A stretch of 64,000 bases of DNA from an uncultured Prevotellaceae bacterium (GTDB taxonomy: Bacteria; Bacteroidota; Bacteroidia; Bacteroidales; Muribaculaceae): contig ONJX01000007.1 in NCBI GenBank assembly GCA_900318255.1, positions 39,185 to 103,184 on the forward strand, written 5' to 3'. Numbering within the stretch: position 1 is the stretch's first letter; the number at the start of each line of letters is the position of its first letter. The position numbers and the translations under genes were made by a program. Of this stretch, positions 14,564 through 20,343 are shown one piece after another. The notes below the pieces were generated by a model. That model worked only from the letters and a program-made list of their open reading frames with translations. It was not told the origin of the DNA and searched no databases.

Positions 14564-14854
14564 ATGGAAAACAAAAAGAAAAAAGAAGAACTCCAATCGC
14601 GAAGGCAGTTCTTCAAGAACGCCGCCAAAGGCGCGCTCCCAATTCTCGGTGCCATCGCACTGGCTCAAGTTCCGTTTATCTCAAATGCCCATGAGGCAAG
14701 CCCTATGACAGGATGCTCGCCAACATGCCAAGGAGGATGTAGAACATTGTGCCAAGAAGGATGTTCGCACGATTGTACCGGCAGTTGCAAAACAAGTTGT
14801 TATACTCATTGTAACACTACTTGTAAAGGGTCTGCCACTACTTATTGGAGATAA
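14564..14854 (+). CDS. CXXX-repeat RiPP precursor peptide 1 with Tat leader
   Basis: 96 residues. Residues 12-18 are SRRQFFK, a near-ideal twin-arginine motif, followed by a hydrophobic stretch (GALPILGAIAL) and a probable signal peptidase site after SNA (residue 42). The core holds ten Cys at exactly every fourth position, residues 51-87 (CSPTCQGGCRTLC…), ending AT-TYWR. This layout matches the CXXX-repeat targets of radical SAM peptide maturases, whose genes lie just downstream. Expected fate: crosslinking of the CXXX core in the cytoplasm, then Tat export and leader removal. The leader is nearly identical to that of precursor 2; the core is not. The region is AT-rich compared with flanking core genes, suggesting acquisition. 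Confidence 0.85.
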   Translation: MENKKKKEELQSRRQFFKNAAKGALPILGAIALAQVPFISNAHEASPMTGCSPTCQGGCRTLCQEGCSHDCTGSCKTSCYTHCNTTCKGSATTYWR

Positions 14855-14869
14855 AAAATACCTTTTCAT

Positions 14870-15751
14870 ATGAGAGTTTTTTATCAAAATGCATTCATTT
14901 TGATTGCATTAGTGCTTTTATTACCTATTAAAGCACATGCTGAAAGAGAAGTAATAAACTACCTGTCAGCTGGTCCAAATATTTGTACTCCTGTTACTGT
15001 GAAATGTAACAAGGGGACATTTCAAGTGTATTATGATGAAACTATAGTTTATGGAAATCTCATGTACATAGAAGCATGGGATTGTCAAGGTCGAAAGATA
15101 ATTGACACCGAAGCTGATAGTTACACTCAAAACTCTGAAGGTCCATACAAGAGATGGTTTAAATTCTCAACATTATATCCTGAAACAACTTCATCAAGCG
15201 ATAATTATAATAGACACTCATCTAGTTCTTCAAACCCAGTTACTAATGTTCTGTCAAGACATACAGATGATATAGCAAGAACTGGTGCCGATGCCTTGAC
15301 CTATGTCTTTGAAAATCACGTCAAAGAGTGGTCAGAATGGAAAAAACGCCTTGACGTTATAGTCTCATATGATTCTGGAATAGGTGGTACTGCATTAGGA
15401 TTGCAGTACCGCACGCCAATAGTATTTGGTGTGATTGCTAGAGCTGGGTATAATTTCAAGTATAATAAGTATTCAGGTGATGACAAAATTATTCATTGGA
15501 GCGCAGGTATTCAATTTTGGATTAAGAATTGGAATATCTTTGAGATGGGTGTTGGAAACTACTATTTTAAGCATACAGAGACAACAAACATTGGGATATA
15601 TATGACAACTAACTATACTCAACAGATTTATAGAGGACTTGGAATAAATGCTGGATTAGGATTTTCTATTAGAGGAAAAGACCCAGAGAATCACATTCAC
15701 CCAATATTCATTTGGCATGCAGGTCTTGTCTGGAGATTTTGTTTAGATTAA
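14870..15751 (+). CDS. secreted, probably outer-membrane, protein inside the RiPP cluster
   Basis: 293 residues, 15 bp after precursor 1 and so probably cotranscribed. Signal peptide in residues 1-24 (ILIALVLLLPIKAHA). Residues ~120-140 are a Ser/Asn-rich linker. The C-terminal ~120 residues alternate aromatic and polar residues (VIARAGYNFKYNKYSG, IHWSAGIQFWIKNWNIFEMGVGNYYF) and end in VWRFCLD, as in a small beta-barrel. I recognise no family. By position it may serve the exported peptide as receptor, anchor or pore; this is inference only. It is AT-rich like the two precursor genes around it. Confidence 0.65.
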   Translation: MRVFYQNAFILIALVLLLPIKAHAEREVINYLSAGPNICTPVTVKCNKGTFQVYYDETIVYGNLMYIEAWDCQGRKIIDTEADSYTQNSEGPYKRWFKFSTLYPETTSSSDNYNRHSSSSSNPVTNVLSRHTDDIARTGADALTYVFENHVKEWSEWKKRLDVIVSYDSGIGGTALGLQYRTPIVFGVIARAGYNFKYNKYSGDDKIIHWSAGIQFWIKNWNIFEMGVGNYYFKHTETTNIGIYMTTNYTQQIYRGLGINAGLGFSIRGKDPENHIHPIFIWHAGLVWRFCLD

Positions 15752-15921
15752 AGCAAAAGAAAGAAACAATATGATAACACGCAATTATTCTTCTCCTTGC
15801 CACAAAAGCATTATTACAATTTTTTATGAAGGAGAAAAGGTATAAGATTATTTTATAAAGAATAAATAGGGGAAGCCGAAAACCTTTTAAAGAGTAGGCA
15901 CAATTAATAACAATAAAAAAT

Positions 15922-16233
15922 ATGGAGAAAAACAAAAAGAAAGACGAACTGCAATCAAGAAGACAGTTCTTCAAGAAAGCCGCCAAAGGCGCATTACCAA
16001 TCCTCGGTGCTATCGCACTGACAAATGCTCCTTTTTTGATCAATGCACATGAATTAGAGTCAACCAATAGTTGTAATAATGGTTGCTCATATATGTGTCA
16101 AAGTTATTGTTCGCGTAGTTGCACGGGCAGTTGCAAAGGCAGTTGCGAGGGAAGGTGTAATGTTAACTGCTCCAATTCTTGTGCTCGTGGGTGTCAATAC
16201 ACATGTAATGGCTATAGCTCACATAATCGTTAA
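15922..16233 (+). CDS. CXXX-repeat RiPP precursor peptide 2 with Tat leader
   Basis: 103 residues. Leader residues 8-33 match precursor 1 almost exactly, including SRRQFFK at 12-18 and the block AAKGALPILGAIAL; the cleavage region INAHE is also shared. The core has twelve Cys, residues 51-95, strictly one every four (CNNGCSYMCQSYCSRSC…), two repeats more than precursor 1, with other residues between. Several CXGS/CXGR units (CTGSCKGSCEGRC) recur. The tail is NGYSSHNR. Two precursors with a fixed leader and variable core are typical of a RiPP system in which the enzyme reads the leader. A very strong hairpin terminator follows. Confidence 0.85.
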   Translation: MEKNKKKDELQSRRQFFKKAAKGALPILGAIALTNAPFLINAHELESTNSCNNGCSYMCQSYCSRSCTGSCKGSCEGRCNVNCSNSCARGCQYTCNGYSSHNR

Positions 16234-16237
16234 TGCG

Positions 16238-16284
16238 TTTCACAACCTTATTTTGTCAGACAAAATAAGGTTGTGAAAAAATAT
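16238..16284 (+). terminator. very strong hairpin terminator after precursor 2
   Basis: Perfect 20-nt arms (16238-16257 and 16259-16278) separated by one base lead into AAAAATATT on the plus strand. It separates the precursor unit from the enzyme genes, allowing high precursor and low enzyme expression. Confidence 0.8.
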
Positions 16285-16331
16285 TAAGTGTTGAGTCCAC
16301 TCCAAAAACAGCCATTATTTTAAGTGGACTC
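16283..16331. promoter_or_regulatory. 9-bp inverted repeat upstream of the radical SAM gene
   Basis: GAGTCCACT (16283-16291) and AGTGGACTC (16323-16331) flank an A-rich 31-nt loop and end 30 bp before the GTG start. This could be an operator or an attenuator; no -7 element is obvious. Confidence 0.5.
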
Positions 16332-16361
16332 TATTAAGTAGAATACAATTAATTATTATCT

Positions 16362-17594
16362 GTGGAAAAAGTTAAAGAAAGTAGCCAAGCATGGCAATCG
16401 GGCGTGGCTAAGAACATCACGTTTATTGTCACGAAGGATTGCCAGCTGGCTTGTAAGTACTGTTACCTTGTGGGGAAGAATGAGAAGGAGCAGATGTCGT
16501 GGGAGACTGCGAAGGCTGCTATCAACTATATTCTGAGCCACGAGGATGACTTTCGTGAGGAGAGCGTGATCTGGGACTTCATTGGCGGTGAGCCGTTTAT
16601 GGAGATTGACTTGATTGACAAGATATGCGACTACCTCAAGACCGAGATGTTCCGCCTGGGCCATCACTGGTTCAACAGCTACCGCTTCTCGTTCTCGACC
16701 AACGGCATCAACTACCACACTCCCAAGGTGCAGGAGTTCATCAAGAAGAACCACACGCACCTGAGCGTAGGCATCACCATCGACGGCACCGAGCGCAAGC
16801 ATGACCTTAACCGCATCTACAAGCAGAGCAACCCCGACGGCAGCGAGCACGGCTCCTACCAGGACGTGGTGCGCAACATCCCTCTGTGGCTGGAGCAGTT
16901 CCCAGGTGCATCAACCAAGGTGACCATCAGTAGTGCCGACATCCCGTTCATCAAGGAGAGCGTGCTGCACCTCTACTCGCTGGGCATCCATGAGGTGAAC
17001 ATCAACTGTGTGTTTGAGGACGTGTGGCAAGAGGGTGACGACCGCCTCTTTGAGGACCAGCTCATGCAGCTTGCCGATGCCATCATCGACGGTGGCTACT
17101 ACACCGACTATGCCTGCTCATTCTTCAGCGAGAACATAGGCAAGCCGCTCGACCCTGTGCTTGAGAACCAGAACTGGTGCGGTGCGGGCAAGATGCTTGC
17201 CGTTGACGCTGCCGGAATGTTCTATCCCTGCACCCGCTTTGCTGGCTACTCACTACGTGAGAAGAAACCAATCATCATTGGCAATGTGCGCGACGGCATA
17301 GATAAAAACAAGCTGCGCCCGTTCCTCACGCTCGACCGCACTACTCAAAGTCCTCAAAAATGCTTGGACTGCGAGGTGGCAAGCGGCTGCGCCTGGTGCC
17401 AAGGCGAGAACTACGACGCCGCCGCAACGAGCACCATCTACCAGCGTGCCACCGCCATCTGCCTGATGCACAAGGCCCGCGTGAGAGCCAACAACTACTA
17501 CTGGAACCGCCTCTACCGAAAGCTCGAACTTGAAGGCCAACGCGAGGAATTTGAGAAGAACAAACCATCGGAAGTGTCAAGTGTTAATTGTTAA
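16362..17594 (+). CDS. radical SAM/SPASM peptide maturase, CXXX-repeat target type
   Basis: 410 residues, GTG start. The radical SAM motif CQLACKYC (Cys 27, 31, 34) binds the catalytic [4Fe-4S]; GGEP follows. The C-terminal SPASM/twitch Cys set includes WCGAGKMLAVDAAGMFYPC, CLDCEVASGCAWC and AICLMHKA, predicting two auxiliary clusters. Enzymes of this build make thioether or C-C crosslinks in ribosomal peptides, and I believe this one belongs to the family named for CXXX-repeat targets. It lies with the two Cys-repeat precursors and the partner maturase. Substrate assignment is from context; the exact bond formed is unknown. Confidence 0.9.
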   Translation: MEKVKESSQAWQSGVAKNITFIVTKDCQLACKYCYLVGKNEKEQMSWETAKAAINYILSHEDDFREESVIWDFIGGEPFMEIDLIDKICDYLKTEMFRLGHHWFNSYRFSFSTNGINYHTPKVQEFIKKNHTHLSVGITIDGTERKHDLNRIYKQSNPDGSEHGSYQDVVRNIPLWLEQFPGASTKVTISSADIPFIKESVLHLYSLGIHEVNINCVFEDVWQEGDDRLFEDQLMQLADAIIDGGYYTDYACSFFSENIGKPLDPVLENQNWCGAGKMLAVDAAGMFYPCTRFAGYSLREKKPIIIGNVRDGIDKNKLRPFLTLDRTTQSPQKCLDCEVASGCAWCQGENYDAAATSTIYQRATAICLMHKARVRANNYYWNRLYRKLELEGQREEFEKNKPSEVSSVNC

Positions 17595-17600
17595 ATGTTA

Positions 17601-17668
17601 TGTAGGGACAAGGCGTGCCTTGTCCGTGAAACGCGCAATGTAGGGACAAGGCGTGCCTTGTCCGTGAA
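17601..17668. repeat. two copies of a GGACAAGGCGTGCCTTGTCC palindrome
   Basis: Copies at 17601-17630 and 17639-17668, with the same flanks (TGTA…GTGAA), lie between the two maturase genes. Further copies are at 25071-25096 (reverse) and 59508-59535. It is a dispersed REP-like element. Confidence 0.85.
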
Positions 17669-17708
17669 GCACAACGCAAGCAACTTCAAAAACAAAAAAA
17701 CGTGAACT

Positions 17709-18653
17709 ATGCTACAATATTTAGTAATTCTGCTCGATGACACCAGCACAAGCTTCTGTCATTACAGTGTGAACAAGAAAGAGCGCAATCTCATCTCGCT
17801 CGACCACCTTCGCAAGGGCATACGCTTTGGCATGGTGGAGAACCTGATGATCCAGTTTGTCTATCCCGACTATCCTCTGCCACAGGAATATCTCGACGTA
17901 ATTGACACCATCGACCACAGCAACATCAAGCCAATGGCCGCTCTCGACAATGACACCGATATTGTGGTGATTGACGACTGGGAATGCGATGCCACCAAGC
18001 TTAAAGATTCAGTTTTAGTGCTACGCACCAATTGGAAGCAGTTCTATGAGAACCATAGTAAGCTCAAAGGCCTGCTTAACGTGGTGCAACGCCTAAACGT
18101 AGTCATCACTGATTTGGAGCGGATGAATGACTGCGACCGTGAGAACTACAAGGCTGTGCTTGAAGCTATGTGCAAAGACATTGAAGCACTATATGTTGAT
18201 GGCAAGTCGCCACAGTTCAACCTGCTCACCGACCGCATGATGCTCACAGCGATGAACAACTGCAACGCCGGCGACACCACCATCACGCTTGCTCCTAACG
18301 GCAAGTTCTACACATGCCCGGCGTTCTACTATGAAGATGAGAGCGACACCGTGGGCGACCTTGACAGCGGCCTTGACATCAAGAACAAGCAGCTCTACAA
18401 GCTCAATTATGCCCCTATATGTCGCAAATGCGATGCATGGCAATGCCACCGCTGCACCTGGCTCAACCGCAAGACCACCCTCGAGGTCAACACCCCAAGC
18501 CATGAGCAATGCGTAGCGGCCCACCTTGAGCGTAACGCCTCGCGCGAGCTCATGCTCTCGCTGCGCAGCAAGGGCACATTCCTGCCCGACAAGGAAGAAA
18601 TCAAAGAATTAACCTATCTCGACCCATTCGAGATAGCGACACGATGGAAATAG
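17709..18653 (+). CDS. CXXX-repeat peptide maturase partner (SPASM-like, no CX3CX2C)
   Basis: 314 residues. It has no N-terminal radical SAM cluster motif. The second half carries a SPASM-style Cys set: KFYTCPAFYY, then ICRKCDAWQCHRCTW, and a further Cys in HEQC. Together with the preceding gene this matches the 'CXXX repeat peptide maturase' family that accompanies the radical SAM enzyme. Likely a degenerate SAM-barrel partner that binds auxiliary Fe-S clusters and helps recognise or process the peptide; the mechanism is unknown. It is 114 bp after the SAM gene, with two REP palindromes between. Confidence 0.8.
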   Translation: MLQYLVILLDDTSTSFCHYSVNKKERNLISLDHLRKGIRFGMVENLMIQFVYPDYPLPQEYLDVIDTIDHSNIKPMAALDNDTDIVVIDDWECDATKLKDSVLVLRTNWKQFYENHSKLKGLLNVVQRLNVVITDLERMNDCDRENYKAVLEAMCKDIEALYVDGKSPQFNLLTDRMMLTAMNNCNAGDTTITLAPNGKFYTCPAFYYEDESDTVGDLDSGLDIKNKQLYKLNYAPICRKCDAWQCHRCTWLNRKTTLEVNTPSHEQCVAAHLERNASRELMLSLRSKGTFLPDKEEIKELTYLDPFEIATRWK

Positions 18654-18759
18654 TTAATTCAATGCACAATTCATAATGCTTAATCACCGCTGCTTCTGAT
18701 AAACGAAATCCGTTCCACTTTCCACTTTCCACCAACAAACCATAAACGATAAACGAAAC

Positions 18760-19035
18760 ATGACACGCAAATTAGTAGGTCAGGTAACACCTGAGGAGAA
18801 AAACGAGATTCTAGCGCTCTTTGAGCGCCGCAATGGCCTTAACGAGCTGGCAAAAGTGCTCACCGCCGACAATGCCGAGCTTTATGAGAAGCTTGTAAAA
18901 GACATGGGCGAGACCGGCACCAAGTTCCAAGGCTGGTGGGACACCATGGCGCAAAAGTACAACTGGGAAAGCTCACCCAACGGCAACTGGGAAATCAACT
19001 TCGACACCTGCGAGATATTCCTCAACGCCGAGTGA
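18760..19035 (+). CDS. CXXX-repeat peptide modification system small protein
   Basis: 91 residues, soluble, helical at first (TPEEKNEILALFERRNGLNELAK), with a C-terminal segment rich in Trp and Asn (WWDTMAQKYNWESSPNGNWEINF). Size, position directly after both maturases and this ending fit the small 'modification system protein' that I recall as a fixed member of CXXX-repeat loci. It may be a leader-peptide recognition or chaperone subunit; there is no catalytic motif. It is followed 58 bp later by tatA. Confidence 0.7.
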   Translation: MTRKLVGQVTPEEKNEILALFERRNGLNELAKVLTADNAELYEKLVKDMGETGTKFQGWWDTMAQKYNWESSPNGNWEINFDTCEIFLNAE

Positions 19036-19093
19036 CAATAGTCAGAGTATTACAAGACAAGTCTCGTAACTTAACACTTTAAACTTAACTCTT

Positions 19094-19330
19094 ATGACTT
19101 TATTAATGATAGGCACCACCGAGCTGCTGCTGGTCGCAGGACTGGCCCTGCTGCTCTTCGGTGGCAAGAAACTGCCCGAGATGATGAAGGGCATGGGGCA
19201 AGGTGTGAAAAGCTTCAAAGAGGGACTGAACTCTCCAAGCGAGGAGCCTCAAAAGGAGGAGGAGAAGCCTACCGATGAGGCACAACCCGAGCAGCCTGCC
19301 CAGGCACAGGATAGCGCCCAGCAACAATGA
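19094..19330 (+). CDS. tatA: Sec-independent translocase subunit TatA
   Basis: 78 residues. An N-terminal membrane helix (IGTTELLLVAGLALLLFGGKKLPEMM) has the TatA hallmark FGGKKLPE, followed by the amphipathic helix GMGQGVKSFKEGLNS and an acidic, Gln-rich tail. TatA oligomers form the protein-conducting patch of the twin-arginine pathway. The stop overlaps the tatC start by 4 bp (ATGA), a tight operon. It lies at the end of the CXXX cluster, whose two precursors carry Tat motifs, so the export machine and its probable cargo are encoded together. Confidence 0.93.
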   Translation: MTLLMIGTTELLLVAGLALLLFGGKKLPEMMKGMGQGVKSFKEGLNSPSEEPQKEEEKPTDEAQPEQPAQAQDSAQQQ

Positions 19331-20118
19331 GCAAGGGCGACAACGGAGGCATGATGACCTTCGGAGGGCATCTTGAGGTGTTGCGAAAGATGCTCTTCCG
19401 CATCATCGCCGTGGCTATGGCGTTTGCGGTGGCAATCTTCTGCTTCCGCCAGACCACTTTCGACATCCTGCTTGCCCCCGGCAGCAGCAACTTTACCACT
19501 TACCGTGGCATCGAGAGCCTTTGTGCCTGGGTGGGAATAGACTTCCACTTCGAGCCCTTCAAAATCACCCTCATCAACACCGAACTCTCCAACCAGTTCA
19601 TGACCCACCTCTCCACCTCGGTCATCCTGGGGCTGCTGTGTGCCTCACCTTACATCGTGGTGGAGCTGTTTCGCTTCATCAGCCCCGCCCTCTACGACAA
19701 CGAGCGACGCTACTCGGTGCTGATAACAGTAATCATCTACCTGCTCTTTATCTCAGGCGTGGTGATGAACTATTACATCCTTTTCCCCTTTGCCCTTCGG
19801 TTTCTTGGCACCTACCAGGTGGATGCGAGCGTGGTGAACCAAATCAACATCTCGTCCTACATCTCCACTTTCACATCCCTCACTTTCATGCTGGGACTAG
19901 TGTTCCAGATTCCTGTCATCTCCTTCTTCCTTGCCAAGATGGGCATACTCTCAAGCGAGACAATGGCCCATTACCGCCGCCACGCCATCATCGTGATTGC
20001 ACTTGTGGCGGCGATCATCACACCACCCGACCTGTTCACACTATGCCTTGTGGCAATTCCCATGTATGGCCTCTATGAGGTGAGCATCCTAATTGTGAGG
20101 CGAGTGCAACGGTCATGA
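19327..20118 (+). CDS. tatC: Sec-independent translocase subunit TatC
   Basis: 263 residues, six predicted membrane helices; the receptor for twin-arginine signal peptides in the inner membrane. The conserved N-terminal site appears as GGHLEVLRKML, and the second as ISPALYDNERRYS, keeping the Glu equivalent to E. coli Glu103. Oddity: in E. coli the first site is HLIELRKRL with the essential Glu15. Here the Glu has moved one position earlier and Val stands at the Glu15 position. That may be a lineage trait or a sign of a specialised receptor for the SRRQFFK leaders. No tatB is seen. Confidence 0.93.
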   Translation: MSKGDNGGMMTFGGHLEVLRKMLFRIIAVAMAFAVAIFCFRQTTFDILLAPGSSNFTTYRGIESLCAWVGIDFHFEPFKITLINTELSNQFMTHLSTSVILGLLCASPYIVVELFRFISPALYDNERRYSVLITVIIYLLFISGVVMNYYILFPFALRFLGTYQVDASVVNQINISSYISTFTSLTFMLGLVFQIPVISFFLAKMGILSSETMAHYRRHAIIVIALVAAIITPPDLFTLCLVAIPMYGLYEVSILIVRRVQRS

Positions 20119-20122
20119 ATTT

Positions 20123-20157
20123 AGTCGGAATGTCAATAAAAAATCGACATTCCGACT
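20123..20157 (+). terminator. hairpin AGTCGGAATGTC…GACATTCCGACT after tatC
   Basis: 12-bp perfect arms (20123-20134 and 20146-20157) with an A-rich loop start 5 bp after the tatC stop. Little T-run follows (AGTTTC), so termination is likely but not certain. Confidence 0.6.
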
Positions 20158-20264
20158 AGTTTCATCATACATAACCTTTCCTGCAAAATATAGCTCTACA
20201 AACCACTGATTATCAATTTACACCACATAGTTATCAACACACAATAATCTCACAATAAGAATTC

Positions 20265-20309
20265 AAACTAGTCGGAATGTGGAAAAAAAATCGACATTCC
20301 GACTAGTTT
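20265..20309 (-). terminator. second copy of the AGTCGGAATGT hairpin
   Basis: 16-bp arms (20265-20280 and 20294-20309) with the same stem sequence as the hairpin at 20123. It lies 35 bp beyond the 3' end of the minus-strand SRPBCC gene. The two near-identical hairpins bound 107 bp of AT-rich DNA with no gene. Confidence 0.6.
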
Positions 20310-20343
20310 GGTGATGTTTTGCTATCAATAAGGAGAGGGCGGG

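Follow-up and report, generated by a model that had tools for sequence, protein, structure and literature searches.

Ribosomally synthesized and post-translationally modified peptides (RiPPs) usually leave the cell via ATP-binding cassette (ABC) pumps and less often via the Sec route. In a 64,000-nucleotide stretch of DNA from an uncultured Prevotellaceae bacterium (contig ONJX01000007.1 of assembly GCA_900318255.1; the whole stretch is called the window hereafter), a gene cluster can be found that encodes two Cys-rich peptide precursors, a radical S-adenosylmethionine (SAM) enzyme and the twin-arginine translocation (Tat) proteins TatA and TatC. For parts of this arrangement, described counterparts exist. 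In the qhp system, cytoplasmic crosslinking of a peptide containing Cys by a radical SAM enzyme precedes the export of this peptide to the periplasm, whereby the leader is cut by QhpE and the crosslinked peptide is exported by the ABC transporter QhpF (PMC7876137). This course of events resembles the one proposed here. However, the window maturase reaches only 105.7 bits against TIGR03906 (cut-off 453), and neither a QhpE-like nor an ABC gene was found near the window cluster. The best-scoring characterised family after TIGR04115 is PapB of the ranthipeptides (NF047865, 193 bits for the maturase, below the cut-off of 340), which links Cys to the residue four positions further on in CX3D/E motifs (PMC9413430). 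In the window peptides, by contrast, this residue is another Cys, Asp and Glu are scarce, and the leader is a Tat signal. Regarding export, nisin has been carried folded by an engineered Tat route for phage display (Hetrick et al., as mentioned in the review PMC11048544), and Tat has been raised as an option for lanthipeptide display (PMC5686179); the nisin construct, however, is a man-made fusion, as opposed to the natural pathway proposed here.

The CXXX-repeat system to which the window cluster belongs already has family names in NCBIfam (TIGR04115, TIGR04119, TIGR04116 and TIGR04117), hence the new part would be the Tat system in place of an ABC pump. Open-licence papers searched for the accessions and for the names of the families and the repeat did not include a study of this system, and in the main text of a paper on RiPP mining in Bacteroidales (PMC10352776) there are zero occurrences of Tat, twin and CXXX. 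A natural Tat-exported RiPP was likewise not found among the titles and abstract starts listed from the open-licence literature, an earlier remark being possible; the sequence-only reading at the origin of this analysis, made without database searches, also knew of no described case. The radical SAM/SPASM maturase and its SPASM-like partner recognized in that reading score far above the family cut-offs, and the small system protein, precursor 1, TatA and TatC exceed the cut-offs of their respective families as well (Table 1). At the gene level, the cluster shows the layout of a RiPP locus, with precursors consisting of leader and core adjoining the modifying enzymes. Taken together with the comparison of related loci, the two Tat-signal CXXX peptides are probably modified in the cytoplasm by maturase and partner and then exported in a folded state via the TatA-TatC proteins of the operon.

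Both window precursors carry the sequence LQSRRQFFK, and Cys at every fourth core position, as claimed from the letters, could be verified, with 9/9 and 11/11 Cys-Cys intervals being exactly four. Shuffling the cores (10,000 times each) resulted in means of only 0.98 and 1.21 intervals of four, with maxima of 6 and 7. The Tat consensus is S/T-R-R-X-F-L-K (PMC3383694), and the precursors show S/T-R-R-x-F-[FL]-K together with a hydrophobic stretch and a cleavage site.

For comparison, further loci were collected via the maturase or the partner gene. In the order, TIGR04115 was above cut-off in 6 of 247 genomes (own genome included) and TIGR04119 in 12 of 393 genomes, while the phylum survey of 395 genomes gave 6 genomes with TIGR04115, representing three families. 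Scanning species genomes gave 368 relatives, the best 80 of which were used, with distant types being under-sampled. The resulting 96 loci comprise the window, these 80, L033–L037 and L227–L231 from the order and L204–L208 from the phylum; L226 duplicates L108 and was not counted. Judged by record title, most of the scanned relatives are from Bacteroidales groups, many of them from rumen and gut samples. Three loci (L091, L094 and L117) are labelled Clostridium, Clostridia or Ruminococcus; their maturases nest among those of Bacteroidota, and the records are probably mislabelled or mixed metagenome-assembled genomes (MAGs). The maturase gene is present in 96/96 loci and the partner gene in 95/96, the exception being L061, where the contig ends 56 bases past the maturase.

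Within the first 75 residues, the twin-arginine motif RRx[FL][FLIMAV] occurs in 142 of 152 CXXX open reading frames (ORFs) compared to 201 of 7517 other ORFs. In 135 leaders chosen by RRxFF and aligned on RR, positions outside the motif are also conserved, with K at +5 in 91%, AAK at +7 to +9 in 76, 80 and 74%, L at +12 in 89%, P at +13 in 96% and G at +16 in 78%. An AxA-like site is found in 104 of the 108 leaders not showing a lipobox-like match. A strict lipobox with Asp, Glu or Asn as the next residue (e.g., LTSCEIDDP) is present in 22 of 144 Tat-leader precursors, suggesting that in some cases the products are likely lipid-anchored; this combination may resemble the surface-export signals of Bacteroidetes. 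Among 2193 CXXXC units of the cores, position +4 is Cys and position +2 is Gly in 40%. At the DNA level, a degenerate pattern for twin-arginine codons was uninformative, giving 125 matches in the own genome versus 185 for the reversed control.

Leader type and exporter vary together across the loci. At least one Tat-leader precursor is encoded in 88 of the 96, and in none of these 88 was an ABC exporter with a same-strand start in the range of -5 to +7 kb detected, when searching by phmmer with the four ABC proteins of the ABC-type loci, a procedure that quite different exporters could escape. In contrast, L037, L206, L207 and L208, representing two lineages, possess an ABC transporter gene, but neither a Tat leader nor a linked tatC (0/4 each), the single tatC of each genome being located on another contig. 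For L047, L073, L083 and L116, starting less than 600 bases from the maturase, the leader region is off the contig. Fisher's test on 88/0 versus 0/4 gives p = 3.6e-7, with the loci being related and the contrast really resting on two ABC lineages. Of the 74 loci in which the sequence continues for 4.5 kb or more downstream, 56 have tatC there on the same strand, starting at a median of 212 nt after the TIGR04116 gene (first set, 54). Among the 96 loci, the window and 67 more combine a linked tatC with the lack of a neighbouring ABC pump. Since the four sister loci not showing a Tat leader encode an ABC transporter, the Tat pore is likely a substitute for the exporter usually employed for such peptides; in the ABC-type loci, the place of the genes suggests peptide export by the ABC proteins. 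Thus, the survey of maturase, twin-arginine CXXX precursors and tatC called for by the sequence-only reading supports its proposal of Tat export well, an adjacent ABC transporter appearing only where the Tat leader is missing.

Among the ABC-type loci, L037 encodes, in addition to the maturase, a protease resembling QhpE (111 bits, cut-off 165) as well as an ABC transporter, an arrangement also described for the qhp operon (PMC7876137). L206, L207 and L208 are minimal, with precursors of 66–94 aa ending in or near GGQCLSGCKDECITVSK; a TIGR04116 gene was not seen in these three loci, and scanning the L206 and L208 precursors gave zero NCBIfam names.

In the order, 204 of 247 genomes have a tatC above cut-off, so that finding this gene is hardly informative by itself. 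In 53 of the 67 genomes with a linked tatC, another copy exists outside the locus, and 14 have cluster copies only, including G262, in which both copies belong to clusters (L048 and L084). Two or more tatC matches were obtained for 12 of 241 order genomes not having the cluster, the two samples being unmatched. In a TatC tree obtained by a quick method, excluding one of 65 linked TatCs (under 250 bits) and some unlinked copies, 52 of 64 linked copies are on one side of a branch free of unlinked copies, albeit support for this branch is not strong (Shimodaira-Hasegawa-like approximate likelihood-ratio test, 83). The other 12 comprise L036 standing alone, eight beside unlinked copies of other genomes, and L033, L105 and L107. 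Also within the main linked branch are five ambiguous TatCs from genomes with a cut or doubled locus. A single origin of all linked TatCs was rejected in the approximately unbiased test (p = 2.7e-5), from which all 7 ambiguous rows, the five mentioned included, were excluded. Because the linked TatCs cannot be held together as one group, tat genes have joined CXXX clusters more than once; in the absence of a functional tie, such repeated entry would be hard to explain. A linked tatC is also present in a named strain, Xylanibacter rarus strain 109 (L077). In the genomes of L036, L230 and L231, the cluster tatC is the only one found, and their Tat system may mainly serve CXXX peptides.

Several findings weigh against folded export of modified peptides through the TatA-TatC proteins of the operon. 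Ten of the 152 CXXX ORFs do not show the twin-arginine motif in the first 75 residues; those of L080 and L107 carry it further on, one belongs to the ABC-type locus L037, L041 contributes an ORF with a degenerate leader and another, short frame rich in Cys, and the remaining five seem to be fragments. The ABC side of the contrast consists of 4 loci from 2 lineages on long branches, and the three ABC proteins scanned best match MsbA-type families, all below cut-off. Furthermore, the full span from -5 to +7 kb is visible in only 54 of the 88 Tat-leader loci, and in L114, having both a Tat leader and a linked tatC, an ABC transporter is encoded 4.3–5.9 kb upstream of the maturase, just outside the limit. 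TIGR04116 is present in L037, where a Tat leader is missing, and hence is not Tat-specific. PapB-type links from Cys to Asp or Glu are unsupported, with these residues accounting for 7.8, 6.0 and 6.5% at the three X positions of the CXXXC units, i.e., 6–8% per position. Tat-leader loci in genomes having no tat genes at all had been named in the sequence-only reading as a finding that would speak against it if common; of the 87 genomes having a Tat-leader locus, 86 gave a tatC match, and the miss is G287 (L042), a 1.6-Mb MAG with no tatC found, in which the contig ends 621 bases past the maturase. In G296 (L083), tatC was not found either, also not in the 4.6 kb downstream, with the precursors off the contig. 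Both genomes count mildly as counterexamples.

The role of the operon's own translocase is concerned by 14 Tat-leader loci having at least 4.5 kb of downstream sequence but no linked tatC. All of them are in genomes with tatC elsewhere and would use another Tat system, meaning that the pore is often not dedicated. These loci favour an alternative in which any cellular TatAC exports the peptides and the linked tatAC merely increases dosage or travels with the cluster, and the 14/67 genomes with cluster copies only point in the same direction, as these copies would then be serving any other Tat cargo, too. This alternative appears less likely, however, with a further tatC being retained beyond the locus in 53/67 genomes and a separate branch being formed by the majority of linked TatCs. 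Of the sequence-only proposal of folded export through a dedicated pore, the export route is well supported by comparison, including the linkage in 56/74 loci, while dedication holds only in part in view of both groups of 14. Improbable is also an explanation as metal or Fe-S carriers, with the Cys residues binding metal in the cytoplasm, Tat being employed for metal-loaded cargo and the radical SAM pair introducing a small or different change. Cys makes up about 23% of the cores and most Tat substrates of E. coli carry redox cofactors (PMC3712460), in line with this idea. On the other hand, the maturase is encoded in all loci and the partner in all but the truncated L061, the loci having been found through these very genes; 855 different XXX triplets are odd for a fixed metal site; and a recurring metal-handling gene was not noticed, with no search aimed at one. 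Export via Sec, with incidental twin arginines and tatAC being there for another reason, would agree with the hydrophobic stretch and the AxA-like sites, but is very unlikely given the enrichment of the twin-arginine motif in CXXX over other ORFs and a tatC linkage gained more than once. Scarcely credible, finally, is a role of the Cys-repeat ORFs as mere passengers beside the maturase. In favour of this role, their modification is a prediction from sequence. Against it, TIGR04117 is named a radical SAM target by NCBIfam, although this is a name rather than a test; 82 of 86 loci have CXXX ORFs close to the enzyme; and leader type changes together with the exporter.

The maturase of the window shows the CX3CX2C motif at residues 27–34. 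For the partner, a structural model (predicted local distance difference test score, pLDDT, 90.7) matched CteB (5why, E 9.5e-10) and the anaerobic sulfatase maturase; the title of the 5why entry mentions thioether bond formation. As the fold matches yet CX3CX2C is missing in all 65 family members (0/65), with eight Cys columns being invariant, the prediction for the partner is a pseudo-radical-SAM protein with intact SPASM cysteines. In L037 (9101–11266), TIGR04115 and TIGR04119 are naturally fused to a protein of 721 aa, encoded beside the QhpE-like subtilisin and the ABC transporter, and in L204 the partner is fused to TIGR04116, with L205 being alike. These fusions indicate a complex. The TIGR04116 protein is predicted to adopt a beta-alpha-alpha-beta-beta fold (pLDDT 93.7), for which zero matches in PDB were obtained at E <= 0.001. 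A function as PqqD/RRE winged-helix leader binder is unsupported, since the predicted fold differs from a winged helix. In size (91 versus 87 aa), the protein is similar to Tat proofreading chaperones such as NapD, which stays on the Tat signal of NapA until the cargo is mature (PMC3712460); NapD, however, has a ferredoxin-type fold, unlike the one predicted for TIGR04116. In L050, TIGR04116 is encoded twice, tatA is matched twice and additional precursors precede a single tatC, apparently owing to a tandem duplication inside the cluster.

In the window, all genes are arranged on a single strand in the order precursor 1, 293-aa ORF, precursor 2, maturase, partner, 91-aa protein, tatA and tatC (Table 1). 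The tatA-tatC overlap reported from the letters was found as 4 nt (ATGA), with tatA ending at 19330 and tatC starting at 19327. Precursor 2, being 0.3 bits below the TIGR04117 cut-off, reaches 50.3 bits when including adjoining in-frame stretches. In the 3.1-Mb host genome, this cut-off is attained by the two window precursors only, the next match having 12 bits, and a second tatC is encoded elsewhere (G000:C43), its product being 40% identical to the cluster TatC.

Table 1. Features of the CXXX gene cluster and its inverted repeats, with positions in the window.
Feature	Position	Strand	Description
Precursor 1	14564..14854	+	96 aa; Tat signal SRRQFFKNAAKGALPILGAIAL..SNA; core with 10 Cys, spacing 4; 53.8 bits vs TIGR04117 (cut-off 50)
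293-aa protein between both precursors	14870..15751	+	Sec-like N-terminus (by eye)
Precursor 2	15922..16233	+	103 aa; Tat signal SRRQFFKKAAKGALPILGAIAL; core with 12 Cys, spacing 4; 49.7 bits vs TIGR04117 (cut-off 50)
Inverted repeat, precursor 2/maturase gap	16238..16278	.	perfect, 20 nt, 1-nt loop
Radical SAM/SPASM peptide maturase	16362..17594	+	410 aa, GTG start; TIGR04115 632 bits (cut-off 350)
Partner	17709..18653	+	314 aa; TIGR04119 241 bits (cut-off 150)
CXXX modification system protein	18760..19035	+	91 aa; TIGR04116 98 bits (cut-off 50)
tatA	19094..19330	+	78 aa; TIGR01411 57.1 bits (cut-off 53.9); PF02416 47.2 bits
tatC	19327..20118	+	263 aa; TIGR00945 165.4 bits (cut-off 132.7); PF00902 208 bits (cut-off 25.1)
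Inverted repeat directly 3' of tatC	20115..20165	.	23-nt arms, 87%

The inverted repeat following tatC is likely the operon terminator, with a terminator scan listing zero sites there; the CTAGTCGGAATGT inverted repeat occurs once more about 100 bases beyond it, at 20264–20310. The hairpin between precursor 2 and the maturase is a possible attenuator and may set precursor expression above that of the enzymes. Strong hairpins (arms of at least 9) were found in 8 of 68 measured precursor-maturase gaps, i.e., in 7 loci besides the window, compared to 1 of 68 shuffled ones, and a hairpin at this position was thus rejected as a general feature of the clusters. The 293-aa protein was not assigned to any family in NCBIfam and Pfam scans, and a plasmid comparison gave zero matches. 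With L074 encoding the sole relative among the 96 loci, it was rejected as a conserved system component. L034, L035, L227 and L230 likewise encode small proteins whose N-termini resemble signals (by eye), located among the precursors or immediately ahead of them.

With regard to mechanism, the Tat signal of the precursors likely doubles as the RiPP leader for the maturase, as there are zero other leader segments upstream of the core and its conservation exceeds the Tat motif. Judged by their families, maturase and partner would then likely link the Cys residues via thioethers or similar bonds; given the scarcity of Asp and Glu, the next Cys or Gly are guesses for the acceptor. The rigid product would be carried out by Tat, which is open to folded cargo, and the leader would be removed by signal peptidase I or, in the case of the 22/144 lipobox precursors, by the lipoprotein peptidase. 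With a signal peptidase cutting the leader after export, leader protease and ABC pump would both be dispensable. More tentatively, a natural RiPP class is possible in which one signal serves as leader, export tag and cleavage site, the folding preference of Tat acts as a checkpoint for the fully crosslinked peptide, and tat has been recruited several times. As PapB links to the residue four positions on, where the next Cys is found here, the product of such a class might be a ladder of Cys-to-Cys thioethers forming a stapled rod, which would be lipid-anchored in some species.

If true, a Tat-exported RiPP family would join two fields, Tat quality control and RiPP engineering. The former would gain a small, variable and genetically tractable cargo, and the latter a natural leader taking a modified peptide out via a route for folded cargo. 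Moreover, the paired loci, in which the same enzymes are combined either with Tat leader and tatC or with another leader and an ABC pump, would represent a natural experiment on the need for Tat.

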